Shown here: in pieces, positions 32,951-63,905 of the stretch | Layout of the letters: each line of letters opens with the position of its first letter | How positions within the stretch are numbered: the stretch's first letter is position 1 | Assembly: GCF_900129505.1 (NCBI RefSeq) | Contig: NZ_LT670818.1 | Coordinates: 6,791,001-6,855,000 of the forward strand | Length of the DNA stretch: 64,000 nucleotides | Source: Bradyrhizobium erythrophlei | GTDB lineage: Bacteria; Pseudomonadota; Alphaproteobacteria; Rhizobiales; Xanthobacteraceae | Direction of reading: 5' to 3' | Position numbers and translations under genes: made by a program | Notes under the pieces: model-generated | Told to the model about the DNA's origin: nothing | The model's input: the letters and a program-made list of their open reading frames with translations, nothing else | Databases searched by the model: none

Positions 32951-32959
32951 CCTGCGCTA

Positions 32960-34930: not shown

Positions 34931-34935
34931 CTCGT

Positions 34936-36845: not shown

Positions 36846-36925
36846 CTGCCAAAGCGTGCAGACAATCGTCTTGGACCGTGGAACCGCCGCGGCGCCGATC
36901 ACAGTGAAACCGCGATCAGTGGACT

Positions 36926-45999: not shown

Positions 46000-46032
46000 G
46001 CTTGACTCATCACCGGTTCCACCCAATCGTAT

Positions 46033-46044
46033 ATCGTATACGAT
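46033..46044. promoter_or_regulatory. Probable GntR/FCD operator
   Basis: ATCGTATACGAT is a perfect 12-bp palindrome, and an extra ATCGTAT half-site precedes it at 46026-46032. It lies in the short divergent region between the hydroxylase operon and the GntR gene. FCD-type GntR regulators commonly bind ATnGTATACnAT-like sites, so this regulator probably controls both directions. Confidence 0.78.
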
Positions 46045-46099
46045 CACGCCGGGACCGCACATGTCAATCGGGTCTGGGGATAGGGAGTTTGATCTCGGG

Positions 46100-47053: not shown

Positions 47054-48112
47054 ATGCGGACTACGGTAATTGGCGGGGCGATGCTGCCTCATGCGCCCCA
47101 GTTCTTCACGATGCCGGACACTGAGGACAAGAAGACCGTCGAGCAGGTGCGCGCGGTCGCGGCGGATATCGGCAACAAGCTCAAGGCGTTGAAGCCCGAT
47201 CTCTGGATCATCTTTTCCAACGATCACGCCGAACAGTTTTTTCTCAACTCCACGCCGCCGTTCACCATCCACGTCGGCGGCGAAGCAAGCGGCGAATTCG
47301 CCGGGCGTAAATTCCACTGGAAGATCCCGAGCGAAATCGGCTTCGAAATCGTCCGGCAGCTCTATCGCCAGCAGTTCGATCCCGCCTTCACCAGCACCGC
47401 GCGCATCGACTACGCCATCGGCATTCCGCTGACGCATCTCGGCGTCACCGACCCGGTGCTGCCGATCTATGTCAACGCCTATCTCCCGCCGCAGCCGACC
47501 ATGGAACGCTGCTACGCGTTCGGCCAGGCGATCGCCCGCACCGTCACCTCGCTCGGCTTGCGAACCGTCATCCTGTCGAGCGGCGGCATGTCGCATTTCC
47601 CGGGAACAGACCGCTATTCCAATCCGGAGCTCGCCTGGGATAACAAGCTTCTGGAGAAGCTCGCCGCCGGCAATCTGAAATCGCTGATCGGCTTCGACGA
47701 GACCGAGCTCGACGACACCGGCAATATCGAGTTGCGGTGCTGGGCCTGCGCAGCCGGCGCGCTGGGCGAGCGCAAGCCTGACGTCGTTTCGATGGATCCG
47801 AGCTGGCATCACAATTATGCATCGCTTGCATGGTTCGGCGAACAGGGAGACGGGCGTGACGCGCACTATCCCTCGATCAAACCGGAGCTGGTTCAGCTGA
47901 CCTCGGCGCTCCACGGCCTCGCCCACAACGAGACCGATCGTGCCCAATACATGGCGGATGCATCGGCCTATGCCGACAAGTTCAAACTTTCGGATGAACA
48001 CCGTGCGGCACTGGCCAAGCTCGAGGTCCCCTCGATCGTCAAAATGGGGGTTCACCCGCTGGTGCCGTTCCTCGCCAACATGCAGATCCAGCGGCTGCGG
48101 AATCCTCGCTGA
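47054..48112 (+). CDS. Class III extradiol dioxygenase, LigB domain fused to LigA-like domain
   Basis: This enzyme should cleave a catechol-type ring next to the hydroxyls with non-haem Fe(II). The LigB domain (residues about 1-285) has candidate iron ligands His13 (MLPHAPQF) and His58 (SNDHAEQFF) and a possible catalytic His181 (SSGGMSHFPG); an acidic ligand may be in the FDETELDD region. The last 55 residues, YADKFKLSDEHRAALAKLEV to KMGVHPLVPFLANMQ, resemble the separate LigA subunit of protocatechuate 4,5-dioxygenase. The fusion recalls gallate-type dioxygenases but is shorter (352 residues). GGAAGGAG gives a strong start. It heads a rightward gene set. Confidence 0.87.
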   Translation: MRTTVIGGAMLPHAPQFFTMPDTEDKKTVEQVRAVAADIGNKLKALKPDLWIIFSNDHAEQFFLNSTPPFTIHVGGEASGEFAGRKFHWKIPSEIGFEIVRQLYRQQFDPAFTSTARIDYAIGIPLTHLGVTDPVLPIYVNAYLPPQPTMERCYAFGQAIARTVTSLGLRTVILSSGGMSHFPGTDRYSNPELAWDNKLLEKLAAGNLKSLIGFDETELDDTGNIELRCWACAAGALGERKPDVVSMDPSWHHNYASLAWFGEQGDGRDAHYPSIKPELVQLTSALHGLAHNETDRAQYMADASAYADKFKLSDEHRAALAKLEVPSIVKMGVHPLVPFLANMQIQRLRNPR

Positions 48113-48186
48113 CATAAACCGCTCCTCACTTCCGCAATTAACGGATTTTGTCGGCGGCAAGCCAACCGTGACTGAGACAACACTTC

Positions 48187-48993
48187 ATGAAAAAAACTGC
48201 AACCGTAGCCTTTATCGGTTGGGGCGCGATCAATGCCCACGTCGGTGCGCTGCTGGCGCGGCGCCGGAGCGCCATCGATGTCGTCGCCATCGCCACCCTC
48301 GACACGCCGGAAGCGCGCGCCTCGATACCGAAGGGGGTTCGCTTTCTGGACTCTCCCGAGAAACTGATCGAACTGGCGCCTGACATCGTGGTCGAAGCGG
48401 CCGGCCGGGCCGCTATCGACAGATGGGCCGAAGCCGCGCTCGCCGCCTCGCCCGCGATGATCATCGCCTCCACCAGCGCGTTCTGCGACGACGCATTGCT
48501 GCCCCGGCTCGTGGCGGTCGCCGAAACCCACGGCAGCCGGATTCTGATTCCGTCAGGGGCAATCGGCGCGGTCGACGCGCTGGCCGGCGCCGCGGTGCTG
48601 GGGCTTGACGAGGTGACGCATCAGATCGTCAAGCCGCCGGTGGCGTGGAAGGGAACGCCGGCTGACCAACTGCTCGATCTTGCCACCCTGACCGAGCGCA
48701 CGGTATTTTTTACGGGCACCGCGCGTGAAGCCGCCGGTCTTTATCCGCAAAATGCCAATGCCACGGTGGTCACCGCCTTGGCCGGTGTCGGCCTCGACAA
48801 GACCCGGGTGGAACTGGTGGCGGACCCGTCATTCCGCAGTAACGGCCACCGCATCATCGCGCGAGGCGGGTTCGGTCGCATGGACATCACACTCGAAAAC
48901 AACCCGCTTCCGACCAATCCGAAATCATCGGAGCTGACGGCGCTGAGCCTGGTGCGACTGATCGAGCATCAGGTCAACGTGGTCGTCATCTAA
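48187..48993 (+). CDS. NadX / aspartate dehydrogenase-like oxidoreductase
   Basis: The 268-residue protein has a Rossmann entry, VAFIGWGAINAHVGALLARR, and the aspartate dehydrogenase pattern PDIVVEAAGRAAIDRWAEAA and SGAIGAVDALAGAAVLGLDE. The catalytic-domain segments IVKPPVAWKGTPA and LYPQNANATVVTALAGVGLD match the family. L-aspartate dehydrogenases make iminoaspartate for NAD; in a catabolic cluster the enzyme may instead act on a ring-cleavage product, such as an amino or hydroxy semialdehyde. It follows the dioxygenase by 74 bases. Confidence 0.87.
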   Translation: MKKTATVAFIGWGAINAHVGALLARRRSAIDVVAIATLDTPEARASIPKGVRFLDSPEKLIELAPDIVVEAAGRAAIDRWAEAALAASPAMIIASTSAFCDDALLPRLVAVAETHGSRILIPSGAIGAVDALAGAAVLGLDEVTHQIVKPPVAWKGTPADQLLDLATLTERTVFFTGTAREAAGLYPQNANATVVTALAGVGLDKTRVELVADPSFRSNGHRIIARGGFGRMDITLENNPLPTNPKSSELTALSLVRLIEHQVNVVVI

Positions 48994-49065
48994 CCGCGCG
49001 CCAGGTAATGTGTATTGTCGCCCGAGTGCGGTCCATAAGACGATGCGAATGAAGAGCGTGAACCC

Positions 49066-49983
49066 ATGACGAACTTCCCCGAGATCCCCACCGAACTTCG
49101 CGAACTAATGGCTGAGATCGGACCGAAATGGGCCACCGATACCAAAGGCCATGTTCGGTTGATGATCGACAAATTCAGCGAGGTGCTCAGGCATTCGCCA
49201 ACGGAAGGGGTCCAGGTGGAGACAGGCAACTCCTATGGACCGCATGAGCGGCAGGCCTTCGAAGTGTTCCATCCCGCCTCATCTGACCGGGTACCCCGAC
49301 CCGGGCTGATCTTCGTTCACGGCGGCGCTTTCACCGAGGGCAGCCGCCACCGAACCGAGGCGATCTACGCCAACGTTCTCTATTATTTCGCCAGACACGG
49401 CATCGTCGGCATCAACGCCGGTTACCGGCTTGCACCCGAAGCGCGCTATCCCGAAGCCACCCGCGATATTGCTTCCGTCGTGCAATGGATGCGCACCAAT
49501 GCTGTCAGGCTCAATATCGACCCCAACCGCATATTCCTGATGGGCCACTCGGCAGGCGGCGCCCATGTCGGCAGCTACGCTTACGACAAGCGGCACCAGC
49601 CGGCCGGCGGGCACGGGCTGGCCGGAGTCCTCATCATCAGCGGCCGCGTTCGCGCCGACGGCCGCGCCGACAATCCTAACGCCCGTCGGGTTGCAGAGTA
49701 TTACGGCAGCGACCTTTCGACGTATGACGACCTTTCACCGGTTTCACATGTCGACAAGAACAGCCCACCGACGTTCATCGCGTGCTCCGAATTCGAAAAT
49801 CCGCTGATCGACGTCTACTGTTACGAGCTCGCCCATCGCCTTGCGTCGGCCAAGGGACGCGCGCCGCCCCTTGTCTGGCTGAAAGGCCACAATCATACCT
49901 CGATCATCGGACACTTCAACACTGCCGAGGATACTTTGGGGCGAGCTTGCCTGCAGTTCATCTCCGAAACACGCCGCGCCTGA
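49066..49983 (+). CDS. Alpha/beta hydrolase (HSL/arylformamidase-like esterase)
   Basis: The 305-residue hydrolase has the oxyanion motif FVHGGAFTEGSR and the nucleophile elbow GHSAGGAH with Ser near residue 161. The acid and base are probably in FIACSEFENPLIDVY and LKGHNHTSIIG. HSL-type and kynurenine-formamidase-type enzymes share this layout. In context it could hydrolyse an ester, lactone or amide formed after ring cleavage. It starts 72 bases after the NadX-like gene. Confidence 0.87.
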   Translation: MTNFPEIPTELRELMAEIGPKWATDTKGHVRLMIDKFSEVLRHSPTEGVQVETGNSYGPHERQAFEVFHPASSDRVPRPGLIFVHGGAFTEGSRHRTEAIYANVLYYFARHGIVGINAGYRLAPEARYPEATRDIASVVQWMRTNAVRLNIDPNRIFLMGHSAGGAHVGSYAYDKRHQPAGGHGLAGVLIISGRVRADGRADNPNARRVAEYYGSDLSTYDDLSPVSHVDKNSPPTFIACSEFENPLIDVYCYELAHRLASAKGRAPPLVWLKGHNHTSIIGHFNTAEDTLGRACLQFISETRRA

Positions 49984-51520: not shown

Positions 51521-51538
51521 GTTGACTATCCAGTCAAC
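51521..51538. promoter_or_regulatory. TetR-type operator, site 1 (aldehyde dehydrogenase)
   Basis: GTTGACTATCCAGTCAAC has perfect 7-bp arms around four bases. It lies about 97 bases upstream of the aldehyde dehydrogenase start, and its TTGACT on the minus strand can serve as a -35 box. The same arms recur at 54554, 59306 and 59419. Confidence 0.82.
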
Positions 51539-51733
51539 ACCCGGCTCCCGGCCGGCCGCCGGCATCGATGCAAGCTAGGGACGCGGATATCCAAGGATGA
51601 CATCCTCGGTATGCAGAAGCCTCGACTTCAGCGCCTCATCGGATCGTCGGCGAACGCCTCGATGGTCTTCACAGCCTGGCCCTTCAAGAGCCGCGGCAAA
51701 CGTAAACCGCCTACGGTTTCCCAGGCGGCCCAT

Positions 51734-52834
51734 CTAGTGCAGCTTGGAGAGGTCCTCCTTTTTTGCCTCCGTGACCACAGCGGCACGATCATAGGTATTG
51801 ATCTGGTCGATGAACTGATTCGTGAAGACCTTGTCGGCCGCAGGGGCTACCGGCACGACAGCCTGGTCCTTGAGGAACTGCAAAAGATGCTGCCAGTCGG
51901 CCTCAACAAAGAAGCCATGCTTGCCCCCGATCTTCTCACTGGTCCAGATCGCCAACCTGCCCTGATTGACGGCGATCCCTTCCTTCAGTGCCTCGGCTGC
52001 GTCCGGGTTCTTGGAACGGGATTCCGGATAATTCTTCCAGGTAATCAGCACCGCGGCTTCAGGATTGGCCATGCTGTAATCATATCCCTTGGCGACCGCT
52101 CGAGCGATGCCGACCAACATTTTCGGATTCTTTTCGATCGTATCATTTCGCGCGAGCAGGCCGACATCCGGCAGTGTGCGCAGAAGGTCCGAGGCCGGAA
52201 TTTCCCGGAGCTTCAGCCCCGAGAAGGCCAGTTTGGCCAGTGCCGCGTCCCAGAAGATCACGCCGTCGACGAATTTCTGGCGAACCGACGTGATCGCCTG
52301 AGCGCCCAGTCCGATTGGAAGAAAGGAGATATCCTTTGCCGGATCCAGTCCGGCTTCTTTCACGAAAGCCTTCGCAAATGTCGTTCCGGCGCTTCCCATC
52401 GACTGGACGCCAAGCTTCTTGTCCTTCAGATCGGCCAGAGTTTTGATCGGACTGTCGGGCAGCACGGCAACCGACCAGATATTGGCGTAATACAGGTCAT
52501 AATAGTATCGGATATTCAGCTTACCGGACTGGATGCCAACGATGGCCTCACCGGGGGAAGCCGCTCCCACTTCGGCGTTGCCTGCCGAAACCTGTAACGC
52601 GGACTCGTTCGATCCGCCCACCGCCAGCAGGCTTACATCGTAGCCTTCGGCGTCGAAATAACCCTTCTCCTTTGCTACCACGAACGGCGAGAACGCCTCG
52701 TCAATGGCCCTGACCGGAATCAGGATGCGCACCTTCTCCAGCGCGTAGGCAGCCGCCGAAAAGTTCAGCATTAGTGCCGCGACAAGAGCCGCCTGCGGTA
52801 TCTTGCATCCGATACCAACGTACGACATTCGCAT
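51734..52834 (-). CDS. ABC transporter substrate-binding protein, NMT1/SsuA type (importer 1)
   Basis: The 366-residue periplasmic receptor has an N-terminal signal sequence (AALVAALMLNFSAAAYALEK) and the NMT1-like entry VRILIPVRAIDEAFSPFVVA, then GYFDAEGYDVSLLAVGGSNE. Families of this type serve sulfonates, taurine, pyrimidines and aromatic compounds. It is the last gene of the leftward unit ATPase-permease-binding protein. A second ATG two codons later (MSYVG) is an alternative start. Confidence 0.9.
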   Translation of the reverse strand: MRMSYVGIGCKIPQAALVAALMLNFSAAAYALEKVRILIPVRAIDEAFSPFVVAKEKGYFDAEGYDVSLLAVGGSNESALQVSAGNAEVGAASPGEAIVGIQSGKLNIRYYYDLYYANIWSVAVLPDSPIKTLADLKDKKLGVQSMGSAGTTFAKAFVKEAGLDPAKDISFLPIGLGAQAITSVRQKFVDGVIFWDAALAKLAFSGLKLREIPASDLLRTLPDVGLLARNDTIEKNPKMLVGIARAVAKGYDYSMANPEAAVLITWKNYPESRSKNPDAAEALKEGIAVNQGRLAIWTSEKIGGKHGFFVEADWQHLLQFLKDQAVVPVAPAADKVFTNQFIDQINTYDRAAVVTEAKKEDLSKLH

Positions 52835-52855
52835 TCTCGCTACCCTAAAACGTGA

Positions 52856-53647
52856 CTACACCAACACCGGCGCCTCATTACGCCGGATCCAGAAAATATA
52901 ACGACGGGCCGCCACTCGCGTGACGCCGTGCATCACCAGTCCGATTGCCGAGAGAACGATCAGCACCGCAAACACGCCGGCGATGTCGAGATTGAAATTG
53001 AGCGCGATGATCAGGTAGCCCAAACCGACCTGGGCGCCGACAAATTCGCCGACGATGGCGCCGATTACGGCCAGCACGGCCGCGATCTCGAGCCCCGCGA
53101 AAATCAGAACCAATGTTGACGGAATCCGCAATCGCACAAGTGTTTGCCAGCTGGTGGCTCCAAACGCCTTCATCATGTCGAGCTGGTCTCGGTCGGTGGC
53201 GTGAAATCCGGCCACCACGCTGACCAGAATAGGAAAGAAGCATACCAGCGCCGTGATGACGACCTTCGACGTCAGCCCGTATCCGAACCAAATGATGAAC
53301 AGCGGCGCGATAGCTACCTTGGGCAGGGTCTGCAGCGCCACCAGATACGGGTAGACCAGACGCTCGACCACCGGAATTAGCGAGATCATGGCGCCGATCA
53401 CAAGCCCAGCCAACACGCCGAACACGAATCCGGAGAGAATCTCGACCAGGGTCGCCCATAGATGCGGCCATATGGTTCCTGACGCCACCAGCGTGTAGAG
53501 CCTTCCAGCTATCTCGTCGGGCGACGGCAGCACCAGCGGCGATATGTCAAACAGCCGGCAAGCGCCTTGCCAGACGGCAAGAACCGCAAGCGCGAGCAGG
53601 ACCGACTGCAGCCGGTGCGAAGCGAGCAATTTCCTGATTGCGATCAT
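52856..53647 (-). CDS. ABC transporter permease, SsuC type (importer 1)
   Basis: The 263-residue permease has about six helices and the EAA loop DMMKAFGATSWQTLVRLRIP, the contact point for the ATPase. The ATG at 53647 overlaps the ATPase stop (ATGA), which decides the start over an upstream in-frame ATG. It works with the ATPase at 53644 and the receptor at 51734. Confidence 0.93.
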   Translation of the reverse strand: MIAIRKLLASHRLQSVLLALAVLAVWQGACRLFDISPLVLPSPDEIAGRLYTLVASGTIWPHLWATLVEILSGFVFGVLAGLVIGAMISLIPVVERLVYPYLVALQTLPKVAIAPLFIIWFGYGLTSKVVITALVCFFPILVSVVAGFHATDRDQLDMMKAFGATSWQTLVRLRIPSTLVLIFAGLEIAAVLAVIGAIVGEFVGAQVGLGYLIIALNFNLDIAGVFAVLIVLSAIGLVMHGVTRVAARRYIFWIRRNEAPVLV

Positions 53648-54495
53648 AGCGCCGACACCATCGATGTCTCGGCTCCGAAAAGCCTGCGAATGTGGTCGCA
53701 CAATTCACCAAAGCGCGGCGTCCCCATGGTCCGAAGGTTGCGCGGGCGCGCGATGTCGATATCGACGATTTCCGAAATCCTGCCGGGCCTGGGCGACATC
53801 ACAACCACCCGATCGCCCAGCAGCACGGCTTCCGGAATGCTGTGGGTGATGAAGAACACCGTCATGCGCTGCTCGGACCAAACCCGCATCAGTTCCACGT
53901 TCATGGATTCCCGGGTCATGGCGTCCAGCGCGCCGAACGGCTCATCCATCAGCAGGATCTTCGGATCGCGCATCAATGCACGGCAGATTGACACCCGCTG
54001 CTGCATGCCCCCTGACAGTTCGAACGGGTATTTCGCGGCGAAGTCCTTCAAGCCCATGAATTCCAGCAAGCGCTCGGCGCGGGTAACGGTTTCCGCCGAG
54101 GTGTCATGCTTCAGCTGCGCCGGCAGCAGAACGTTGGCGAGCACGGTATTCCAGGGAAGCAGCACGGCCTGCTGAAACACCACGCCGGCGTCGGCGCGCG
54201 GTTTGATGATGCGCTCTCCGCCAGAATAGACTTCTCCAGCGGAAGCCTGTTCGAGTCCGGCCAGAATCCGCAACAGCGTGGTCTTGCCACATCCGCTCGG
54301 ACCGACAACCGAGATGAACTCGTGTTTCTGGATTTCAAGATTGACGTTGGATAGAGCGGTGACAATTCCGCCCGACCGGGCGGAAAAGCGCTTCTCGAGG
54401 CCCACGATTCGTATCAGCGCCTCATGCGACTGACCTGGTGCAGCTTCGACAACATCGATGCCGCTCTTGTCCGATCGCGCTGTCTGCTTTCCCAT
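53644..54495 (-). CDS. ABC transporter ATPase, SsuB type (importer 1)
   Basis: The 283-residue ATPase has Walker A GPSGCGKTTLL, signature LSGGMQQRVS and Walker B ILLMDEPFGALD. These and the H-loop VFFITHSIPEAV are intact. First gene of the importer 1 unit; the operator at 54554 and a good promoter lie just upstream. Confidence 0.94.
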   Translation of the reverse strand: MGKQTARSDKSGIDVVEAAPGQSHEALIRIVGLEKRFSARSGGIVTALSNVNLEIQKHEFISVVGPSGCGKTTLLRILAGLEQASAGEVYSGGERIIKPRADAGVVFQQAVLLPWNTVLANVLLPAQLKHDTSAETVTRAERLLEFMGLKDFAAKYPFELSGGMQQRVSICRALMRDPKILLMDEPFGALDAMTRESMNVELMRVWSEQRMTVFFITHSIPEAVLLGDRVVVMSPRPGRISEIVDIDIARPRNLRTMGTPRFGELCDHIRRLFGAETSMVSAL

Positions 54496-54540
54496 TGTTC
54501 CGATCTGCGTGGACGCCAGAACCTCTTATCGACAGGGCTA

Positions 54541-54571
54541 ACGATAGGTCACAGTTGACTATCCAGTCAAC
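54541..54571 (-). promoter_or_regulatory. Promoter with TetR-type operator, site 2 (importer 1)
   Basis: On the minus strand TTGACT (54565-54570) and TATCGT (54541-54546) are separated by 18 bases, a good sigma-70 promoter for the ATPase gene 46 bases downstream. The operator GTTGACTATCCAGTCAAC (54554-54571), identical to site 1, covers the -35 box, so a bound repressor would block polymerase. Confidence 0.82.
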
Positions 54572-54748
54572 TGAAGGATTAGCGCCGGCTTGAAATGCAA
54601 TGTGGATCCGGCCGTCCGACAAGTCCTTGCTGCCGCCACGGCAAACAGCTGCGGATCTGACTCTGCATCGCAGCCGCTGCCTGCGCGCAGGTTCAACAGG
54701 CCGCAGCGTGGTCGCCAATCGAAAAGCCGCAGAAGGCGGCGCGCCTGT

Positions 54749-55462
54749 CTATTTTTGTTGCAAGGATACGTGACGGGAACTTGAGGCCAATTGCTTGAAA
54801 ATCGTGCGTCGTGGTTTCTTGCAAGGCATGGCGGCCGGCGGCGACAGGCAGTAGCGCAGCACCAGGGTAGTGACATGATCGAGCCAAAGCTTCTGCGCCT
54901 CTTCGGACCCCAGATCCCGGTTGAGTGCGATTTCGAGTGTGAATTGGTTAGAGAGATAATGATAGCAGAGCGAGGACAGGGTCAGATAAACGATAGTCGG
55001 ATCGAGGTCTGGCCGGAACGTGCCGTCCTCGAGGCCACGATCGAGAACGAAGCGGATGGTTTCAACCAGAGGGTTGTACAGATCCCTCATCCGACCCGAT
55101 TTGCGGATGTATTTTCCCCGGTGCTTGTTCTCCTCGTTCATCAGCCGGATCGCGCTGGGATTGTTCTTGAAGGCGTAGAAGGTGTGATGAACGAGCTGGC
55201 CCATCGCCGCCACGGGATCGCTGGCGCGCACCGACAGATCCTTCTGCTGCTCGCGCAGGTCCTGATACATCTGCTCCAGAGCGGCGACGAACAGGCCCTC
55301 CTTCGACTTGAAATAATAGTAAAGCATGTTTTTGCTGACGCGGCAGCGCGCGGCGATACGATCGACACGAGCACCCTCGAACCCGATCCGGGCAAATTCC
55401 TCGGTTGCCTGTTTCAGGATCTTTTCGCGAACGCGAACCGGATCATTGCTGCGGCGTGCCAC
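54749..55462 (-). CDS. TetR family regulator 1
   Basis: The N-terminal helix-turn-helix (about residues 10-56) reads REKILKQATEEFARIGFEGA, then RCRVSKNMLYYYFKSKEGLF. A ligand domain follows; RLMNEENKHRGKYIRKSGRM near residue 105 resembles the RutR-type family. It shares that segment with TetR 2 (LNSENFHKGKHLRKSKLT). The Lys/Arg/Ser-rich last 25 residues are probably an added tail. It lies between the importer 1 unit and the second hydroxylase and is a candidate binder of the GTTGACY-N4-RGTCAAC sites. Confidence 0.92.
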   Translation of the reverse strand: MARRSNDPVRVREKILKQATEEFARIGFEGARVDRIAARCRVSKNMLYYYFKSKEGLFVAALEQMYQDLREQQKDLSVRASDPVAAMGQLVHHTFYAFKNNPSAIRLMNEENKHRGKYIRKSGRMRDLYNPLVETIRFVLDRGLEDGTFRPDLDPTIVYLTLSSLCYHYLSNQFTLEIALNRDLGSEEAQKLWLDHVTTLVLRYCLSPPAAMPCKKPRRTIFKQLASSSRHVSLQQK

Positions 55463-55551
55463 GACTCAATTCTCCCTGCCATGCGGCAACGATGACGGCG
55501 CGGGCGTCCGATTCGCAATCCCATAAGGACGTCAGCGGCCGGATCCGTGTT

Positions 55552-57834
55552 CTAGTGCTTCGCGCCAGCGTCCTCGACCAACTGCCAGATGCGCGCCGGC
55601 GACAGCGGCAATTCCATAGGCTGCACATTGAAATGCGACAAGGCATCGGCAACTGCGTTGGCCATGATGCCTCCGACCGGGATAAGGCCCCCCTCGCCGG
55701 CGCCCTTGGCGCCGAGCGGATTGTTGGGACAGGGTTTCAGCTCGAGCGCTATCGAACGAATATGAGGAAAATCCGAAGCCGTCGGCAGCAAATAGTCGGC
55801 GAACGACCCGGTCAGCAACTGACCGTTCTCGTCATAGACGAGATGCTCGAGAAAGGCGCCACCAAGACCCTGGACGATCGAACCGATCGCCTGTCCATGC
55901 AGCGTCAGCGGATTGATGATGCGGCCGACGTCTTCGACCGACAGATAGTCGAGCACCTTGACGTGGCCCGTACCGGGATCGACCGCAACATGCGCCGCCT
56001 GGGTGCCGTAGGCCCAAGTGTACTTCTTGTTGAAAAATGAGGCTTCCACCTCGAGCGGCGCATCCGCAAGCCCGGCCAGTGGCAGGTTTTTGCCGGAGAA
56101 ACCGACCTCTTCGCCATCGATGGCAATCTCGGCCGGCGCGCAGCCGAACCGCGCCGCGGCGATTTCCCGGACGAGGTCCTTGAGCTTTTCCGCCGCCAGC
56201 AGGATTGCCGATCCACCCATCACCGTCGAGCGCGAGTGATAGGCGCCATAACCGTCCTTGACGTGACTGGTAGAGCCATGATGGACGGTGATCTTCCCGT
56301 ACGGCAGTTCGGTGGCGTCGGCGGCGATCTGAGCCATGATGGTCTCCAGCCCCTGCCCGACCGAAGATGATCCGAGATAAACCGACAGCGAACCATCGGT
56401 CTCCAGCACCAGCCGCGCGTCCTCCTTCGGGCCCGCGGCGCCACCCTCGATGAAGCTTCCGACCGCAATGCCGTGATAGTAGCCGTCGATCAGCTTGCCG
56501 CTGAGCTGGCTCTTTTCGGCCCAGCCGAACTCCTTCATGCACAGATCGAACACCGCGTGATAATCACCGCTGTCCAGCTCGGTCGAGCTGTCGAACGGCG
56601 TGATACTGGCTAGCGGATACGGCATCTGGCTATCCGCGACCAGATTCTTGCGACGCAGTTCGACCCTATCGATGTTGAGGTCCTTGGCAACCAGATCGAT
56701 CAGACGCTCCCGAATGAAATCGGTCTCGAACCTGCCGGGTCCCCGATAGGTTCCGCTCGGCGTCTTGTTGGTGGTCAGCATCGTGGCTTTGAGATCTATA
56801 TTCTCGAAGCAGTACGGGCCGGACATATATTGGGCGACGTTGCGCGGGCCTACCGACCCGTTGGTTCTGATATAAGCACCAATGTCCGCCCAGATCTGGC
56901 CTCGCAACCCCAGAAACCGTCCGTCACGGCTGACGGCGATCTCGACGTCGCACTCGATATCGCGCGCGTGGTTGGCGGTCATCATGTGCTCGCGCCGATC
57001 CTCGGTCCACTTCACCGGACGGCCAATTATCCTGGCGACGGCGGGGATCAGGAAGTCTTCGGGATAAAATTCCCCTCGCGAGCCGAAACCGCCTCCGACA
57101 TCGACCTCGATCAAGTCGATGGCCTCGACCTCGAGCTCCAGCGCTGCGGCCAACACCCGGCGGTTATACCAAGCCGTCTTGGCGGCCCCCCATACGGTCA
57201 ACTTTCCTTCGCCAGCGTTCCATTCGGCGACAAAGCCGCGAGGCTCCATGAACATTGCGGCGTGGCGTTGAACGGCGAACTTCTCTCTGCGGACATAGTC
57301 CGCGGCCTTGAACGCGGCATCGGCGTCGCCCTTGAACGCAGACCAGGTGATGGCGGCGTTGGATCCATGGTCCTCGAACAACACGGAAGCCCTCGCCTCC
57401 GCCTGCTCGCGGCTGGTGATTGCGGGCAGCGTCTCAATCTCCAGATCGATATGGTCCAGCGCATCCTCAGCAATACCTTGCGTGTCCGCCAGGACGATGG
57501 CGATCGGTTCGCCGACGTAACGAACCTTGCCGTCGGCCAGCACGGGCTGATGGAACGGCTCGAGCTGCGGCAGCGGCTGCAGGCGCAGCGGAATCCTGGG
57601 AACGACCGCGCCGAAGTCGGCGGCAGCAAGGACATGGCGAACCCCGGGCATCGCCCGGGCGCGCGCGGTGTCGAGCGACTTGATTATCCCGTGCGCCACG
57701 GAGCTGCGCAAAATCACGGCGTGCAGCTGACCGCGGCGGTTAACGTCGGCGACATAGGTACCGCGCCCGCGCAGGAACCGCATATCCTCGACGCGCTCCA
57801 TCGGCCGGCCAACGTATGAATTTGAAACCTTCAT
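55552..57834 (-). CDS. Molybdenum hydroxylase 2, molybdopterin-binding large subunit
   Basis: The 760-residue subunit resembles the large subunit at 43636 in layout. The active-site loop is SGTYRGPGRFETDF near residue 360, and the catalytic glutamate is in AKGAGEGGLIPVGG near 714. The CO dehydrogenase loop is absent. The ATG at 57834 overlaps the Fe-S subunit stop by 4 bases, which fixes the start. It is the last gene of the FAD - Fe-S - Mo unit, whose order differs from hydroxylase 1 (Mo - FAD - Fe-S). Confidence 0.94.
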   Translation of the reverse strand: MKVSNSYVGRPMERVEDMRFLRGRGTYVADVNRRGQLHAVILRSSVAHGIIKSLDTARARAMPGVRHVLAAADFGAVVPRIPLRLQPLPQLEPFHQPVLADGKVRYVGEPIAIVLADTQGIAEDALDHIDLEIETLPAITSREQAEARASVLFEDHGSNAAITWSAFKGDADAAFKAADYVRREKFAVQRHAAMFMEPRGFVAEWNAGEGKLTVWGAAKTAWYNRRVLAAALELEVEAIDLIEVDVGGGFGSRGEFYPEDFLIPAVARIIGRPVKWTEDRREHMMTANHARDIECDVEIAVSRDGRFLGLRGQIWADIGAYIRTNGSVGPRNVAQYMSGPYCFENIDLKATMLTTNKTPSGTYRGPGRFETDFIRERLIDLVAKDLNIDRVELRRKNLVADSQMPYPLASITPFDSSTELDSGDYHAVFDLCMKEFGWAEKSQLSGKLIDGYYHGIAVGSFIEGGAAGPKEDARLVLETDGSLSVYLGSSSVGQGLETIMAQIAADATELPYGKITVHHGSTSHVKDGYGAYHSRSTVMGGSAILLAAEKLKDLVREIAAARFGCAPAEIAIDGEEVGFSGKNLPLAGLADAPLEVEASFFNKKYTWAYGTQAAHVAVDPGTGHVKVLDYLSVEDVGRIINPLTLHGQAIGSIVQGLGGAFLEHLVYDENGQLLTGSFADYLLPTASDFPHIRSIALELKPCPNNPLGAKGAGEGGLIPVGGIMANAVADALSHFNVQPMELPLSPARIWQLVEDAGAKH

Positions 57835-58307
57835 GAGTTTTCCTTCGCGCTCGCATACGACTTGCGAGCATCGAGAACCGCCTCGACAATCGGAACATAT
57901 CCGGTGCAGCGGCAAAGGTTGCCTGACAGCACGTCACGGACCCGCTCTTCGTCGGCATCGGGCTCGCTGGTCAGCAGCGCGTGCGCCGTCGTGATGAAGC
58001 CCGGGGTACAGAAGCCGCATTGCAGCGCGTGATGTTTGCGAAACGACGCCTGCAGCGGCGACAAATCATCGCCCGATAGCCCCTCGACGGTCACGACCTT
58101 TTCTCCGTCGACCTGAGCCGCAAGCATCAGACAGGACCGTACCGCCTCCCCATTGACGAGGACGGTACAGACACCGCAGACCCCGTGCTCGCAACCCAGA
58201 TGCGTGCCTGTCTTTCCCAGATTGTCGCGCAGGCAATCCGCCAGGCTGATGCGGGCTTCCACCTGCACTGCCACGGCTTCACCGTTGAGCTCGAATTCAA
58301 CTTTCAT
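57831..58307 (-). CDS. Molybdenum hydroxylase 2, [2Fe-2S] subunit
   Basis: The 158-residue product has Cys39, 44, 47 and 59 for the plant-type cluster (CEHGVCGVCTVLVNG), and Cys97, 100, 132 and 134 for the second cluster (CGFCTPG and LCRCTGY). It starts 18 bases after the FAD-subunit stop and overlaps the large-subunit start. Confidence 0.95.
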   Translation of the reverse strand: MKVEFELNGEAVAVQVEARISLADCLRDNLGKTGTHLGCEHGVCGVCTVLVNGEAVRSCLMLAAQVDGEKVVTVEGLSGDDLSPLQASFRKHHALQCGFCTPGFITTAHALLTSEPDADEERVRDVLSGNLCRCTGYVPIVEAVLDARKSYASAKENS

Positions 58308-58325
58308 CCGGTTTCCTGGCGGTTG

Positions 58326-59183
58326 CTATCCGATGGATTGGTTGAGCCCGCGCTCCAGCAGCGTACCGAGAAGGCTGCGGCGATAGGCGGCCGGCGCGTG
58401 GATGTCGGAAGCCGGGTCGATTTCGGCGCGCGCAGCGGCAACCGCTGCGGCAATGCTGTTCTCGTTGACCGGCGTTCCGTTCAGCGCGGCTTCGGCCGAA
58501 GCAAGCCTGACCGGCCGATCGGCGACACCGATCGCGCCGATATGAACGTTCGCGGCGCAGCGTCCTTCATCCAGATCGTAGAACAACGCGATGCCGGCCA
58601 CGGCAAAATCGCCCTTGCGGCGAGCAAATTCCCTGAACGCCCATCGCCGCGCGGCTGGCCACGCCGGCAGATGAACACTGGTAAGTATCTCATCCGGTGC
58701 GAGGCTGGTTTGCAGGAGCCCCTGGAAGAAGCTCGCGGCCTCTTCGACCCGCCTGCCGCCGGCGCCGATAATTTCCAGCCGCGCATCACAGGTCAAGGCA
58801 ATTCCCGGCATCTCGGCCGATGGATCGGCATGCGCCATCGAGCCTCCCACCGTGCCGCGATTGCGGATTTGATAGTGCGCAACATGCCGGATGGCTTCCG
58901 CCAACAAGGGATGCGCCGTCGCCAACCGCTGATCGCCGCCGATGTCGCACCACCGCACTTTCGCTCCCAGAGCGATCCCGTCCTCTGTAATCGTGATGGC
59001 ATCAAGATCGCGGATGCGTTTCAGATCGACCAGCAGTTCGGGCGCGGCCAGCCTGAATGCCAGCATCGGCATCAGGCTTTGGCCGCCAGCGATCAGCTTC
59101 GCATTGCCATTGCCGGCCGTGAGCAGGCTGACCGCCTCGCTCAACGTAGCAGGCGATTTGTATTCAAAGGCGGACGGCTTCAT
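58326..59183 (-). CDS. Molybdenum hydroxylase 2, FAD-binding subunit
   Basis: The 285-residue subunit has KLIAGGQSLMPMLAFRLA and RGTVGGSMAHADPSAEM, the two FAD signatures. The ATG at 59183 starts MKPSAFEYKSPATLSEA, the standard entry. It is the first gene of the unit, with the operator at 59306 about 120 bases upstream, and is divergent from the cupin gene. Confidence 0.94.
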   Translation of the reverse strand: MKPSAFEYKSPATLSEAVSLLTAGNGNAKLIAGGQSLMPMLAFRLAAPELLVDLKRIRDLDAITITEDGIALGAKVRWCDIGGDQRLATAHPLLAEAIRHVAHYQIRNRGTVGGSMAHADPSAEMPGIALTCDARLEIIGAGGRRVEEAASFFQGLLQTSLAPDEILTSVHLPAWPAARRWAFREFARRKGDFAVAGIALFYDLDEGRCAANVHIGAIGVADRPVRLASAEAALNGTPVNENSIAAAVAAARAEIDPASDIHAPAAYRRSLLGTLLERGLNQSIG

Positions 59184-59305
59184 CAGGCCTCCAGAATGGA
59201 TCAACGTCTTTGACGCGACGGCCAGATGAGCGCGTCCCGGTTATCATCTGCCGGCCGTGGCTCAGAGCACGGTCAGCGTGAGGCATTGGCTGGAACATGA
59301 CGTAT

Positions 59306-59323
59306 GTTGACCGGCTAGTCAAC
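59306..59323. promoter_or_regulatory. TetR-type operator, site 3 (hydroxylase 2)
   Basis: GTTGACCGGCTAGTCAAC keeps both arms, with C at the seventh base of the left arm. It is embedded in a longer palindrome, ATGTTGAC...GTCAACAT (59304-59325 region). It faces the FAD-subunit gene of hydroxylase 2. Confidence 0.8.
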
Positions 59324-59418
59324 ATGGAGAGATCCGCGGGAAGCTTGCGGTGTGGAAGGTTTATGGAAAACCGAACCCGCCGACCGACACCATCTCTGAA
59401 CAAACGGCTCCAAATTCA

Positions 59419-59448
59419 GTTGACTATGTGGTCAACAAAAAATATTTT
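59419..59448 (+). promoter_or_regulatory. Promoter with TetR-type operator, site 4 (cupin)
   Basis: GTTGACTATGTGGTCAAC (59419-59436) is the operator. Its TTGACT is followed after exactly 17 bases by TATTTT (59443-59448), a near-ideal sigma-70 promoter. The operator covers the -35 box and most of the spacer. The cupin start is 52 bases beyond the -10 box. Confidence 0.85.
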
Positions 59449-59500
59449 TGGAAGCAGATCGCCAAACGGTAGATCCAAACGTTGTTCGCAGGAGATGGAC

Positions 59501-60028
59501 ATGGCAACGGCGAGACACGCGCGACCGAGGGAACTCGAAGGCGTATCGATCGACCAGATCATTGAGCGTTACGTCGCGCGCTTTTCGGACCGAAGGGCCG
59601 ACTGGGCCGCATTTGAGGACGCCAAGATCGAGGGCTTCAAACGGGCGCAGCATCGCTTCATCGGCGCGGGCGGCTCCGGCAAGCATGGTGATACATCGGC
59701 TATTCCGGCCGGCAATTTCACGCTCTCGATCATGTTCGTTCCGCCCGGTCAGGGCAATGCCGCGCATACGCACGAAGCCGAGGAAGTATTCTTCGTGCTG
59801 CAGGGTTATCTGGATGTTTTCGTTCAGGACGAAGACGGCCACAAGATTACCCGTCGACTCGGGCCATGGGAATGCATCTCCTGCCCGGCAGGGGTAATCC
59901 ACGGTTACCAGAACGACAGCCTGGAGCCCGTATACTTTCAGGTTATGATCGGACGCGGCAAGCCTGAAACCATGGGGTATGCCGACGATGAACTATTCAA
60001 GCGCCGGGATGGACATTTGAAGGTCTGA
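59501..60028 (+). CDS. Cupin domain protein
   Basis: The 175-residue protein has one cupin fold. Metal ligands are visible in GNAAHTHEAEEVFFVLQGYL (HxHx4E form near residue 88) and in SCPAGVIHGYQND (the second motif, with His near 131). It may be a dioxygenase, isomerase or sensor. GGAG at 59491-59494 favours the ATG at 59501 over one at 59495. Its promoter carries operator site 4, so it is likely induced with hydroxylase 2. Confidence 0.88.
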   Translation: MATARHARPRELEGVSIDQIIERYVARFSDRRADWAAFEDAKIEGFKRAQHRFIGAGGSGKHGDTSAIPAGNFTLSIMFVPPGQGNAAHTHEAEEVFFVLQGYLDVFVQDEDGHKITRRLGPWECISCPAGVIHGYQNDSLEPVYFQVMIGRGKPETMGYADDELFKRRDGHLKV

Positions 60029-60061
60029 GGCCCCGCGTCCCGCATCGGCGCGCCTGCCGCC

Positions 60062-60089
60062 TCAAGGTCCCTGCGCTTCAAGGTCCCTG
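60062..60089. repeat. Short direct repeat after the cupin gene
   Basis: TCAAGGTCCCTG occurs at 60062-60073 and again at 60078-60089. Nearby, CTGATTCAAAGTGG and similar strings are partly repeated. It lies between convergent genes and has no evident function. Confidence 0.7.
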
Positions 60090-60168
60090 TCGAGGCATTC
60101 CTGGAAGTGGCCTGATTCAAAGTGGTCCGATTCCCGGAAGTCCCGGCCACGCGTTTGCGGCGACATTC

Positions 60169-60942
60169 CTATCTGCGCTTCTGCGCGCCGAAGCGCAGAT
60201 AGCCCAGCGTCAGATCCTCAATGTGTCGAATCCGCACGTTCATCTCGTCTTCCGTCGAAAATTTGCGGTCAAGAAGATACGACAGCGTGTAGCGGTTCGA
60301 CAGGTAGTGATAGGCCAACGCCGAAATTGATATATAAAATTCCACCGGATCGACACCGCTGCGGAAATCACCGGCTTCCTCACCTTCCTTCAGGAGGCTG
60401 GCGATATTTCCCAACAGACCCGAATAGCCCGCCTTGGTTAGTTTCGACTTGCGCAGGTGCTTGCCCTTGTGAAAATTCTCGGAATTCAGCAGCCCAATGA
60501 ATTCCGGATTGTCGCGCCAGTATTTGAAAGTCGAGCGCACCAATTTTCGAATTCCATCGATCGGAGACGATACGTCCAGGGGCCAACTCATCTGGTACGT
60601 GTGCATGCCCTGATAGGCCGACTCGAGGACCGCAATGAACAGTTTTTCCTTGCTGCCGAAGTAGTGATAGATCAGATTCTTGCTGACCTTGGCGAGGCGC
60701 ATGATGTCGTCGACCCGCGCGCCGTCATATCCCTTGGCGGAAAATTCCTGGATCGCGACGTCAAGGATACGCTGCCGAGTACGGTTGAGACCCGCCTCGG
60801 CGCCGTCGACAGCCTTCTTCTTCGACACCGATGCGGTGGATGCCTCTCCAGCGATCTTGCTTTTTGCCAGCGAAGATTTCTTCCTGGTCCTGCTGGTTCG
60901 GATCGACGCTCCGTTGCGCATGAAGGTACTTTCGGCAGGCAT
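60169..60942 (-). CDS. TetR family regulator 2
   Basis: After a Lys/Ser-rich lead of about 50 residues, the helix-turn-helix reads RQRILDVAIQEFSAKGYDGA, then LAKVSKNLIYHYFGSKEKLF. The recognition-helix region (VSKNLIYHYF) is close to that of TetR 1 (VSKNMLYYYF), so both may bind the same operator. The ligand domain differs more. The start is uncertain because of the lead; an ATG at 60921 is an alternative. It lies between the cupin gene and importer 2. Confidence 0.9.
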   Translation of the reverse strand: MPAESTFMRNGASIRTSRTRKKSSLAKSKIAGEASTASVSKKKAVDGAEAGLNRTRQRILDVAIQEFSAKGYDGARVDDIMRLAKVSKNLIYHYFGSKEKLFIAVLESAYQGMHTYQMSWPLDVSSPIDGIRKLVRSTFKYWRDNPEFIGLLNSENFHKGKHLRKSKLTKAGYSGLLGNIASLLKEGEEAGDFRSGVDPVEFYISISALAYHYLSNRYTLSYLLDRKFSTEDEMNVRIRHIEDLTLGYLRFGAQKRR

Positions 60943-61011
60943 GGCGCGATCCGCAGAGATTCAGACGTAAACGATCTGATGACAGAAGACAATCGGCTGA
61001 CGGCCCCGAAC

Positions 61012-61899
61012 TTACATCGTGCCTGATCCGATGTTGCCGCTGGCGCGGTCGCGATGCGGCATCGCCAGGCGCTCCAGAAATTCCACCACCCCAAACAGTA
61101 CCAGTCCGAGGATCGTCAAAGCCATCACGCCGGCAAACAGCAACGGCGTGTTAAGGTTGCCGTTGGCGATCATCAACTGGTAGCCGAGACCGGCGTCACC
61201 CCCGACAAATTCCCCGACCACCGCTCCAACCACCGCCAACGTGATGGAAATCTTGAGACCGGCGAAGATCGAAGGTAGTGCGTTGGGAAGCCGGATCAGC
61301 CGGAACGTACGATAGCTCGACAGTCCCATCGAACGCGCAAGGAAGATCTTCTCCTGCTCGATCCCGCCCAGCCCCATCACCGTATTGATCACAATCGGAA
61401 AGAACGCGATCAGAAACGCGATCAGCACTTTCGGTAGCAGGCCAAAGCCGAACCATACGACGAACAGCGGCGCTATCGCGACCTTCGGCATCGCCTGCGT
61501 TGAAATCAGCAGAGGGTAGATCGACCTCGCGAACACCGGCCAGTGAAAGATGCCCAGCGCCAGCGGAATACCGATCGCGATGCTCAACAGGTACCCCAGC
61601 AGGATCTCCACGGTCGTGACCCAGGATTCTCGGATCAGCAGCGAGGCATTGTCGCGGCAAGCCGCGAGAATCTGGCTCGGCGCCGGAAACAGATAGGTCG
61701 GGATCTTGAACAAGTCCGTGGCAACCTCCCAGCCTATCAGCAGCCCGGCGGTCACCAGGATCGGGAACAGCACCTCCGATCGCCGCTCGCGCTTTCGCTT
61801 CCTGTTGCTCTCGTTCTGGACGTGGCGCTCGACCTGTTCGATCGAAAGAGCGGAGGCTTGCTCGACCGCTGCGGTCGCTGACATCACGGGGTCCTCCAT
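61012..61899 (-). CDS. ABC transporter permease, SsuC type (importer 2)
   Basis: The 295-residue permease has six helices and the EAA loop IFLARSMGLSSYRTFRLIRL. A charged lead (NESNRKRKRERRSE) precedes the first helix. Its ATG shares one base with the ATPase stop (TGATG), a sign of coupled translation. Confidence 0.93.
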   Translation of the reverse strand: MEDPVMSATAAVEQASALSIEQVERHVQNESNRKRKRERRSEVLFPILVTAGLLIGWEVATDLFKIPTYLFPAPSQILAACRDNASLLIRESWVTTVEILLGYLLSIAIGIPLALGIFHWPVFARSIYPLLISTQAMPKVAIAPLFVVWFGFGLLPKVLIAFLIAFFPIVINTVMGLGGIEQEKIFLARSMGLSSYRTFRLIRLPNALPSIFAGLKISITLAVVGAVVGEFVGGDAGLGYQLMIANGNLNTPLLFAGVMALTILGLVLFGVVEFLERLAMPHRDRASGNIGSGTM

Positions 61900-62714
61900 C
61901 AGTGCTCGCGCAGAATGCCGCGGGCAAGAAATATCTCGAGGATTTCGCGGCTATAGGCAGCGAATTCAGGAGATTCACGCATCGCCAGCGTTCGCGGGCG
62001 CGGCAGATCGATGTGAATGATCTTGTCAACCTTGCCCGGCCGGGGCGTCATGACGATGACGCGATTGGATAGAAACACCGCCTCGACGATGCTGTGGGTC
62101 ACGAACAGAATCGAGACGCTTTGCTTGCCACAGATGTCCTGCAGATCCAGTACCAGCTGGTCGCGTGTCAGCGCATCGAGCGCGCCGAACGGCTCGTCCA
62201 TGAGAAGGTGCGACGGATTATGGATCAGCGCGCGGCAGATCGAAACGCGCTGTCGCATGCCGCCGGAGAGCGACTTTGGATATTTGTCCTCGAACCCGCC
62301 AAGCCCGACGGCGGCGAGCAGTTCGCGAGCCCGCAGTTCGGCCTTCCCCATGTCCATGTCGCGCGCTTCAGCCTGCAGCAGAACGTTTTGCAGTGTTGTG
62401 CGCCAATCCAGCAGGACGTGGTTCTGGAACACGATCCCGATATCGGTGCGCGCCTTTCTCACCGGCTCTCCGTCGACTAGGATTCGGCCGTCCGAGGCTG
62501 AAATTAGTCCGGCCGCGATCATCATCAGTGTGCTCTTGCCGCAGCCGCTGGGCCCCACCAGCGAAACGAATTCGCCTTTGTGCTGGCTGATCGAAACGCG
62601 ATCGAGCGCCCGCACTGGCCCGTCGTCGGTAGGATAGACCTTGCTGAGCGACTGTACCTGCAAGTACGCGGGATCGCTGTCTGGCCGCTGTGCGGTGCTT
62701 AGACCGGCTTGCAT
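61899..62714 (-). CDS. ABC transporter ATPase, SsuB type (importer 2)
   Basis: The 271-residue ATPase carries Walker A GPSGCGKSTLM, signature LSGGMRQRVS and Walker B LLMDEPFGALDA. All catalytic elements are present. It follows the receptor gene by 70 bases. Confidence 0.93.
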   Translation of the reverse strand: MQAGLSTAQRPDSDPAYLQVQSLSKVYPTDDGPVRALDRVSISQHKGEFVSLVGPSGCGKSTLMMIAAGLISASDGRILVDGEPVRKARTDIGIVFQNHVLLDWRTTLQNVLLQAEARDMDMGKAELRARELLAAVGLGGFEDKYPKSLSGGMRQRVSICRALIHNPSHLLMDEPFGALDALTRDQLVLDLQDICGKQSVSILFVTHSIVEAVFLSNRVIVMTPRPGKVDKIIHIDLPRPRTLAMRESPEFAAYSREILEIFLARGILREH

Positions 62715-62784
62715 GAAGTCTTCCCCATCTCACCGGCTCCCGTCACAAGGTGGCGCGTTGTCGCCTGTTGTGACTCCAGTCCGG

Positions 62785-63825
62785 TCAGACATTTTGCGGC
62801 GGAATGAACTCGGCCTCGGTGGGAACGAATTCGTTGGTGTACAGCTCAGCCGCCTCCAATGGGGTCGTGACCCCGCCATAGGTCTTCAGCACGGCAACGG
62901 TTGCCGTCCAGTCTTCCGGCGCCATCCAGCCGAGGGGCTTGTTGGCCGTGGTCGGCGTTACCCAGGTGCTCCAGGATAGCTGCGCCTCGCGCAACGTGAT
63001 CGCGGGATCGGTGGTCTCCTGATACTTCTTGACGATTTGCGTCATTTCTTCAGCGTTGGCTCGCCCATAAAGGAAGCCTTTCATGGTCGCGCGAACCATG
63101 CCGCGGATAAGATCAGGATCGGCGAGCAGGTCCTGATGAACGATGATGCCGTTGCTCATCGCTGTCACGCCCTCGTCGGCATACCAAAAAGCGCGCACCT
63201 TCTTCTTTCCGCGAATTTCGATCGAGGGGATGTAACCCTGGGCGAACCCGGCGATGGCGGCCACCTGTCCGGAAATCAATGCCGGACCGGCCCCCGCGCC
63301 ATCGACATTGATGACTCTCACCTTGCTGGCGTCCAGCCCTGCACCCTTTATGAATGCCGGCCATTGCTGGAACTGCGCGGATCCTGTTGCAATGCCGACG
63401 GTCTTGCCTTCGAGATCCTTCGGACTCCTGATGTCTGACTCTTCGAGGACCAGCGCCGCGCAGGGGTTACGGCGGTAAACGCCGGCCACCATCTTCAGCT
63501 TCATACCCTTGGAAACGCTGTTTCCGACCACGAATCCATCAGCGAATCCAAATTGAACCGCTTTCGAGGCAACAATCTGGGCCGTGCTGCCGGACCCCTT
63601 GCCCTGGTTGATCGTGACATCGAGCCCGGCGTCCGCGAAGAATCCTTTTTCCTTCGCAACGACGAGGCCGGCGTTGGGGCCCCCGTACACCCAGTCGGCC
63701 AGCAGGTTGACTGGCTTGAGCGATTTCAGGGACTGCGCGCGGACGATCGCAGGAAACGACAGGGCGGCAAGCGAGACAACTCCCGCTCCCAGGACATTGC
63801 GACGCGTGATCGAGCCTGCAGACAT
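62785..63825 (-). CDS. ABC transporter substrate-binding protein, NMT1 type (importer 2)
   Basis: The 346-residue receptor begins with a twin-arginine-like signal, SITRRNVLGAGVVSLAALSF, so it may be exported folded by the Tat route. The NMT1-like core includes ADWVYGGPNAGLVVAKEKGF, then DVTINQGKGSGSTAQIVASK. It is the first gene of a leftward receptor-ATPase-permease unit. A promoter (TTGACA, 16-17 bases, AATAAT/ATAATC) and a degenerate operator lie upstream. Confidence 0.92.
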   Translation of the reverse strand: MSAGSITRRNVLGAGVVSLAALSFPAIVRAQSLKSLKPVNLLADWVYGGPNAGLVVAKEKGFFADAGLDVTINQGKGSGSTAQIVASKAVQFGFADGFVVGNSVSKGMKLKMVAGVYRRNPCAALVLEESDIRSPKDLEGKTVGIATGSAQFQQWPAFIKGAGLDASKVRVINVDGAGAGPALISGQVAAIAGFAQGYIPSIEIRGKKKVRAFWYADEGVTAMSNGIIVHQDLLADPDLIRGMVRATMKGFLYGRANAEEMTQIVKKYQETTDPAITLREAQLSWSTWVTPTTANKPLGWMAPEDWTATVAVLKTYGGVTTPLEAAELYTNEFVPTEAEFIPPQNV

Positions 63826-63887
63826 AAGTCACCCCAGTATGTTGCCGCGAACAGCCCGATTATTGCCGAGAGGCCGCGGATGTCAAT

Positions 63888-63905
63888 GTTAACTAACTAG
63901 TCTGT
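63888..63905. promoter_or_regulatory. Degenerate TetR-type operator, site 5 (importer 2)
   Basis: GTTAACTAACTAGTCTGT keeps six of seven bases in the left arm and four of seven in the right arm compared with the consensus GTTGACY-N4-RGTCAAC. It is 63 bases upstream of the receptor start, a distance like that of sites 2 and 4. It may be a weak site or chance. No further gene can be read from here to the end of the window. Confidence 0.5.

Follow-up and report, generated by a model that had tools for sequence, protein, structure and literature searches.

A conserved 18-bp palindrome and its putative TetR-family repressor in a catabolic gene cluster of Bradyrhizobium erythrophlei

RutR, the regulator of pyrimidine utilisation in Escherichia coli, binds a palindrome of ~16 bp, and a structure of RutR with uracil is described (PMC10891134). 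Here we analyse an 18-bp palindrome, GTTGACY-N4-RGTCAAC (GTTGACYNNNNRGTCAAC), and two TetR-family proteins, named hereafter TetR1 and TetR2, encoded in a 64,000-nucleotide stretch of the B. erythrophlei genome (RefSeq assembly GCF_900129505.1, contig NZ_LT670818.1, positions 6,791,001 to 6,855,000; the window). The best NCBIfam match of both proteins is RutR, with 61.8 and 58.2 bits, and neither approaches the cut-off of 368 of the RutR equivalog TIGR03613. The helix-turn-helix (HTH) domain of TetR1 is 32% identical to that of RutR over 114 residues. The proposed TetR1 operator resembles the RutR box, whose consensus we take to be TTGACCAnnTGGTCAA, in that the form TTGACY-R-NN-Y-RGTCAA would be common to both; the rutA-rutR gap of E. 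coli holds GTGGACTAAACGGTCAAA, with two mismatches, although chance alone would yield 0.94 matches at up to three mismatches in the 10 kb concerned. The targets, however, differ: the palindrome accompanies a molybdenum (Mo) hydroxylase, a cupin, an aldehyde dehydrogenase (ALDH) and NMT1-type importers (Table 1). The scan of genes in the window and its neighbourhood revealed no rutA-G set, only an isochorismatase, the counterpart of which in genome G052 scored 101 bits against a RutB cut-off of 377.95.

The window contains four exact matches to the palindrome (starting at 51521, 54554, 59306 and 59419; sites 1 to 4), and none occurred across 100 dinucleotide-preserving shuffles of it. Throughout the genome (9,184,651 bases, single contig) the exact palindrome is confined to the same four places, while a reversed-pattern control gave no exact match. 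The positions given in the initial annotation were thus all exact, with no further match in window or genome, and its remark that sites 1 and 2 share all 18 bases (GTTGACTATCCAGTCAAC) was also correct; a scatter of exact matches through coding DNA, which would have spoken against a regulon, was not seen outside the four. When up to two mismatches were allowed, 70 places were found in the genome versus 63 for the reversed control, that is, chance level, and a tighter pattern with mismatches allowed gave 30 places versus 31, which means that the signal sits in the exact sites alone. A wider regulon elsewhere in the B. erythrophlei genome was dismissed, as places with one or two mismatches are no commoner than in the control. 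One two-mismatch place, at 58284, occurs in the window, within the gene for the iron-sulfur subunit of the Mo hydroxylase.

The sites had been described as lying in upstream regions. This is plain for site 2, upstream of the importer 1 ATPase open reading frame (ORF), whereas the other three lie inside the longest ORFs, yet upstream of the preferred starts. Site 1 falls within the longest ALDH ORF (ATG at 51565), yet 49 bp upstream of an in-frame ATG at 51472 that gives a protein of 487 aa; the latter start is preferred because the orthologue ORFs measure 484 and 480 aa. Likewise, sites 3 and 4 fall within the longest cupin ORF (ATG at 59297), yet upstream of an in-frame ATG at 59501 that gives 175 aa, matching most of the homologues listed. 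Since site 3 also faces the gene for the flavin adenine dinucleotide (FAD) subunit of the Mo hydroxylase, sites 3 and 4 belong to one shared divergent promoter region.

The palindrome is co-inherited with TetR1. Among 195 Bradyrhizobium genomes, TetR1 orthologues (E <=1e-60) were found in seven and cupin orthologues (E <=1e-50) in the identical seven, and the exact palindrome is present in 12. At least two exact sites occur in 6/7 genomes with TetR1 versus 0/188 without it (Fisher p ~1e-10), and a single exact site is present in 6/188 genomes lacking TetR1 (Fisher p ~9e-8). Of the five single sites checked for open frames, three (G070, G135 and G183) lie inside frames longer than 400 codons, that of G022 in a 168-codon frame and that of G012 in none; the stretches around all six, with G001 as the sixth, contained no cluster gene except one 24% ATPase match. 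One of the four exact sites of G052 (L040:9650) lies away from the cluster; an isochorismatase ORF begins 20 bp after it, and an NMT1-type importer comes next. In G047, an extra exact palindrome (L038:9898) is near a tannase/feruloyl esterase-like gene, and another site is located on C30.

Conservation was followed in 18 relative loci, namely 17 from a TetR1-alignment scan of named genomes, minus one, plus G015 and G052. L064 (Pelosinus, 34% identity over a short stretch) was excluded before all counts, and L034, L036 and L039, being the same loci as L048, L049 and L051, were counted once. The loci span Bradyrhizobium, Tardiphaga, Rhodopseudomonas, Pseudolabrys and other, mostly uncultured Hyphomicrobiales. 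Despite shuffled gene order, the palindrome is present at 0-2 mismatches in 18/18 of them, before the same genes as in B. erythrophlei: of 57 sites, 56 precede a mapped cluster gene by no more than 450 bp, and one is at a contig end. When counted by target, for genes with their start on the locus and clear orthologues (at least 62% identity), a site precedes the cupin in 16/16 cases, the FAD subunit in 12/12, the importer 1 ATPase in 11/11 and the ALDH (at least 73% identity) in 5/5. FAD-subunit paralogues (34-42% identity; L055, L058, L059, L060 and L063) have none. Over the window and relatives together (19 loci, 380,975 bases), the palindrome was matched exactly at 33 places, with one mismatch at 18 and with two at 11, versus 0, 0 and 3 for the reversed control, and 61/62 sites lie outside mapped genes, while mapped genes span 62% of the DNA. 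Arm-shuffled control palindromes gave a mean of 0.055 matches over shuffles, one of them matching 10 times. Further targets in relatives are a divergent promoter between aspartate dehydrogenase (AspDH)-like and ALDH genes, an amidohydrolase_2 gene, a major facilitator superfamily (MFS) transporter and a second Mo-hydroxylase large subunit. An additional half site, GTCAAC-ATRAT-GTCAAG, is conserved in the AspDH/ALDH promoter at a distance of 11 bp to the operator arm (L048:2401, L049:2416, L050:3156, L051:9182, L055:2674 and L058:2672) and could perhaps serve a second dimer.

Alignment of 55 non-redundant promoters (61 sites, the four of the window included) refined the TetR1-type operator consensus to WGTTGACYRNNYRGTCAACW. 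The arms carry ~1-2 bits per column versus a flank mean of 0.07 bit, although the arm columns had been selected by the search. Columns outside the search pattern are constrained as well, and symmetrically: A/T at position 0 (55/55) and at 19 (51/55), A/G at 8 (54/55) and T/C at 11 (55/55). The patchy distribution of the cluster, in 7/195 genus genomes, might suggest that the repeats are carried passively with a mobile gene cluster or have another role, e.g. in recombination or RNA structure. This is highly improbable, as the sites persist as islands amid diverged flanks, including the four constrained positions that the search did not select, and remain in promoters despite rearranged gene order.

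Both regulators have the domains of the TetR family, i.e. an N-terminal HTH (PF00440, 54.3 and 58.8 bits, cut-off 24) and a C-terminal ligand-binding domain (PF17938 TetR_C_29, 120.8 and 116.3 bits, cut-off 26.2), and the occurrence of the palindrome in promoters of own and adjacent genes agrees, at the sequence level, with this family. The TetR1 gene follows the Mo-hydroxylase large subunit gene at ~90 bp, in the same order in most relatives except L059, L060 and L063; since this order recurs, TetR1 is probably part of its own regulon. The palindrome is very likely the operator of TetR1, a putative repressor with a RutR-like DNA-binding domain. The idea that the sites join uptake, hydroxylation and oxidation genes in one regulon is strongly supported by the comparison, matches being neither scattered over coding DNA genome-wide nor lost from relatives with the same genes. 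The predicted regulon exceeds the one first described, as it would also include TetR1 itself and, in relatives, the AspDH-like, amidohydrolase_2, MFS and second large subunit genes. We infer that a TetR1 dimer on each site would block RNA polymerase at the promoters of the ALDH, importer 1, the Mo-hydroxylase-TetR1 operon and the cupin; at the operon this would amount to negative autoregulation. The left arm TTGACY would double as the -35 hexamer in some promoters. The likely inducer would be the pathway substrate or an early product, and release of TetR1 would turn on the genes for uptake, ring hydroxylation and later oxidation together.

The promoter scan took the operator's TTGACT at sites 2 and 4 for a -35 hexamer, and site 4 has a promoter-like TTGACT-17-TATTTT arrangement. 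Across relatives, a -10-like hexamer is found at spacing 16 in 10/64 and at 17 in 6/64 site-target pairs, and in none at 14 or 19. Such an arrangement would suit repression through a blocked promoter, with the pathway supplying an inducer. Some TetR proteins activate. FasR is termed an activator in a published abstract, and some of the present sites lie more than 200 bp upstream of the gene, which would suit TetR1 being an activator or dual regulator rather than a repressor. The overlap of the operator with a -35-like hexamer at several cupin and importer promoters, together with the location of TetR1 within its own regulon, makes this quite unlikely.

Several observations weigh against TetR1 repression at the palindrome or limit its support. 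The motif was taken from the present genome (G000), which is itself counted among the seven genus genomes with TetR1. G020 has TetR1 and no exact site, with two-mismatch variants of which one lies before its cupin. G047 has three exact sites, a single one of them at the cluster, so that at least two exact sites at the cluster itself are found in 5/7 genomes only. L059, L060 and L063 carry a variant palindrome, GTTGAAY-N4-RTTCAAC, before TetR1, which was counted among the two-mismatch sites. The promoter scan of the region gave five promoter-like sites versus 2.7 expected, and the -10-like hexamer also occurs beside the fixed arm at spacings 10 (10), 12 (6) and 13 (5), so that the overlap of operator and promoter is modestly supported. 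The distance between site and gene also varies, from ~20 to more than 400 bp. As to the variant palindrome, it is located at L059:9782, L060:9782 and L063:9860, upstream of more distant TetR1 forms, and the same loci also hold a cupin site with GAC arms.

The recognition helices of the two regulators had been noted to be similar. This is correct (SKNMLYYYF in TetR1 versus SKNLIYHYF in TetR2), but a shared site is improbable and the palindrome goes with TetR1. TetR2 is present in 3/195 genus genomes and therefore is not the general owner of the TetR1-type palindrome. Beyond the genus set, 3/13 genomes searched hold close TetR2 orthologues (72-76%), and more distant TetR relatives (39-45% identity) are present in every genome looked at. 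A block upstream of importer 2 (ACAGACTAGTTAGTTAAC, 63888-63905) is kept in G015 and G052, and ACTGACCAGTTAGTCAAG and variants precede importer 2 and a row of isochorismatase, dihydroorotate dehydrogenase (DHOdh)-like and amidohydrolase genes in G015, G052 and two Rhodopseudomonas genomes. The pattern ACNGACYRGTTAGTYAR occurs in 3/195 genus genomes, with two copies each, and these are identical to the three with TetR2, while its reversed control gave one match among the 195. The TetR2 consensus was derived from G000, G015, G052, G200 and G203; its presence in the first three is therefore circular, a limit that does not apply to its absence from the remaining 192 genomes of the genus. The 15-base core, at up to one mismatch, was found at one place in the present genome versus six for the control, so that the core alone is not rare. 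The 12 TetR2-type sites each have 3-6 mismatches to the TetR1 consensus, and TetR1-type sites have 2-6 to the TetR2 consensus. Between 19 TetR1 and 6 TetR2 sequences, the recognition helix differs without exception at M46/L, L47/I and Y49/H, and further HTH positions differ as well.

That TetR2, or both regulators interchangeably, occupy the palindrome might be proposed from the likeness of the helices, the common core of the operators and the 4/61 TetR1-type sites that are just two mismatches from the degenerate TetR2 consensus. We regard it as unlikely, given that no TetR2 orthologue was found at E 1e-60 in 4/7 of the TetR1-carrying genomes of the genus, that the TetR2-type sites depart from the TetR1 consensus as described and that the TetR2 motif occurs in exactly the genus genomes having TetR2. 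Instead, TetR2 tracks a putative sibling operator, ACNGACYRGTTAGTYARN, and the two regulators probably do not share a site. TetR2 would repress likewise at ACNGACYRGTTAGTYARN before importer 2 and the isochorismatase-DHOdh-amidohydrolase row. TetR1 would be expected to protect GTTGACYRNNYRGTCAAC with strong preference, and TetR2 to protect ACNGACYRGTTAGTYARN.

With FAD-, [2Fe-2S]- and Mo cofactor-binding domains on three adjacent genes, the Mo hydroxylase has the three-subunit organisation of the xanthine oxidase family. Among solved structures, the large subunit is matched best by 7dqx, 8uem and 1t3q, three-subunit Mo hydroxylases (6-hydroxypseudooxynicotine dehydrogenase, carbon monoxide (CO) dehydrogenase and quinoline 2-oxidoreductase) of which two act on N-heteroaromatics and one on CO. 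As an aerobic CO dehydrogenase the large subunit scored 407.6 bits against the NCBIfam CoxL cut-off of 991.15; it reached 540.9 bits against 950 for the group 5 model and was also below the curated xanthine-dehydrogenase cut-off. The MFS transporter of the regulon scored best, though below cut-off, with the NCBIfam model of the aromatic acid/H+ symport family. The regulon amidohydrolase of L034 has 2dvt (E 5e-70), of the gamma-resorcylate decarboxylase / amidohydrolase_2 decarboxylases, as best solved relative and no NCBIfam match; in the present genome, an amidohydrolase_2 gene is located outside the window and belongs to the TetR2 part. Among the Pfam matches listed for the cupin, none was to the 3-HAO family. 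To our knowledge, none of the picolinate, nicotine, 3-hydroxyanthranilate and uracil schemes fits all parts. Family, structure and literature searches led to no described pathway recognised for the full set, and the titles and abstract openings of the literature matches listed contained no account of the operator or cluster. Taken together, the co-regulated genes point to the breakdown of an aromatic or N-heteroaromatic acid, a type of substrate that we infer from these relatives. We think it fairly probable, as one joint proposal, that two paralogous TetRs of an old duplication split one supercluster by sibling operators with a common GACYR core, that insulation is achieved via outer and central bases (GTTGAC..GTCAAC versus ACNGACYRGTTAGTYA) read by M46/L47/Y49 versus L/I/H, and that the supercluster encodes an undescribed pathway for such an acid.

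The remaining features are compiled in Table 1; in the cupin, two cupin motifs were identified by eye with what we take to be the motif rule. Beyond the window, importer 2 is adjoined by genes for an amidohydrolase_2 protein, a dihydroorotate-dehydrogenase-like enzyme and an isochorismatase. At 47054-49983, genes for a LigB-LigA-type extradiol dioxygenase, an aspartate-dehydrogenase-like protein and an alpha/beta hydrolase stand in a row, before which no exact palindrome exists in this genome; the hydrolase has counterparts of 81-82% identity in L048 and L049. An additional Mo-hydroxylase large subunit gene (43636-46062, minus strand) diverges from a GntR/FCD regulator gene, which is on the plus strand within 45911-46870, and that enzyme is therefore probably under a different regulator. 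Within 22387-37000, a tRNA-Lys gene is followed by ~14 kb of lower G+C content (0.56-0.59) with few long ORFs, encoding an Abi_alpha protein and a universal stress protein, a tract resembling a tRNA-associated genomic island.

Table 1. Genes and putative operators of the cluster, in window coordinates unless stated otherwise
Feature	Position	Strand	Basis or remark
TetR1-type operator 1 (putative)	51521..51538		exact palindrome; 49 bp upstream of preferred ALDH start
ALDH, PF00171	50009..51472	-	Pfam; start by orthologue ORF lengths
Importer 1 substrate-binding protein, NMT1/THI5-like, PF09084	51734..52834	-	Pfam
Importer 1 permease, PF00528	52856..53701	-	Pfam; longest ORF
Importer 1 ATPase, PF00005	53644..54495	-	Pfam
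TetR1-type operator 2 (putative)	54554..54571		exact palindrome; 59 bp upstream of importer 1 ATPase
TetR1, regulator assigned to palindrome	54749..55462	-	PF00440 + PF17938; co-occurrence with sites
Mo hydroxylase large subunit, PF01315/PF02738/PF20256	55552..57915	-	longest ORF; true start probably later
Mo hydroxylase 2Fe-2S subunit, PF01799/PF00111	57831..58307	-	Pfam
Mo hydroxylase FAD subunit, PF00941/PF03450, first gene of operon	58326..59183	-	start by eye; longest ORF to 59204
TetR1-type operator 3 (putative)	59306..59323		exact palindrome; divergent FAD/cupin promoter region
TetR1-type operator 4 (putative)	59419..59436		exact palindrome; 65 bp upstream of preferred cupin start
Cupin, PF07883, 175 aa	59501..60028	+	Pfam
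TetR2, TetR1 paralogue (38% identical)	60169..60942	-	domain search and alignment
Importer 2 permease	61012..61899	-	domain search
Importer 2 ATPase	61899..62714	-	domain search
Importer 2 substrate-binding protein, NMT1	62785..63825	-	domain search
TetR2-type sibling operator (putative), ACAGACTAGTTAGTTAAC	63888..63905	-	upstream of importer 2
Second TetR2-type site	genome 6857895-6857912, beyond window		before isochorismatase-DHOdh-amidohydrolase row

Overall, the analysis defines a putative regulon, assigns a regulator to it and supplies both an operator consensus and a short list of genes that would be co-regulated. This list delimits a degradation pathway, and whatever releases TetR1 would point to the substrate. 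Two paralogous repressors probably split one catabolic cluster, probably for an aromatic or N-heteroaromatic acid, and TetR1 and TetR2, with their sibling operators, would lend themselves naturally to studying how repressors that arose by duplication stay off each other's targets.

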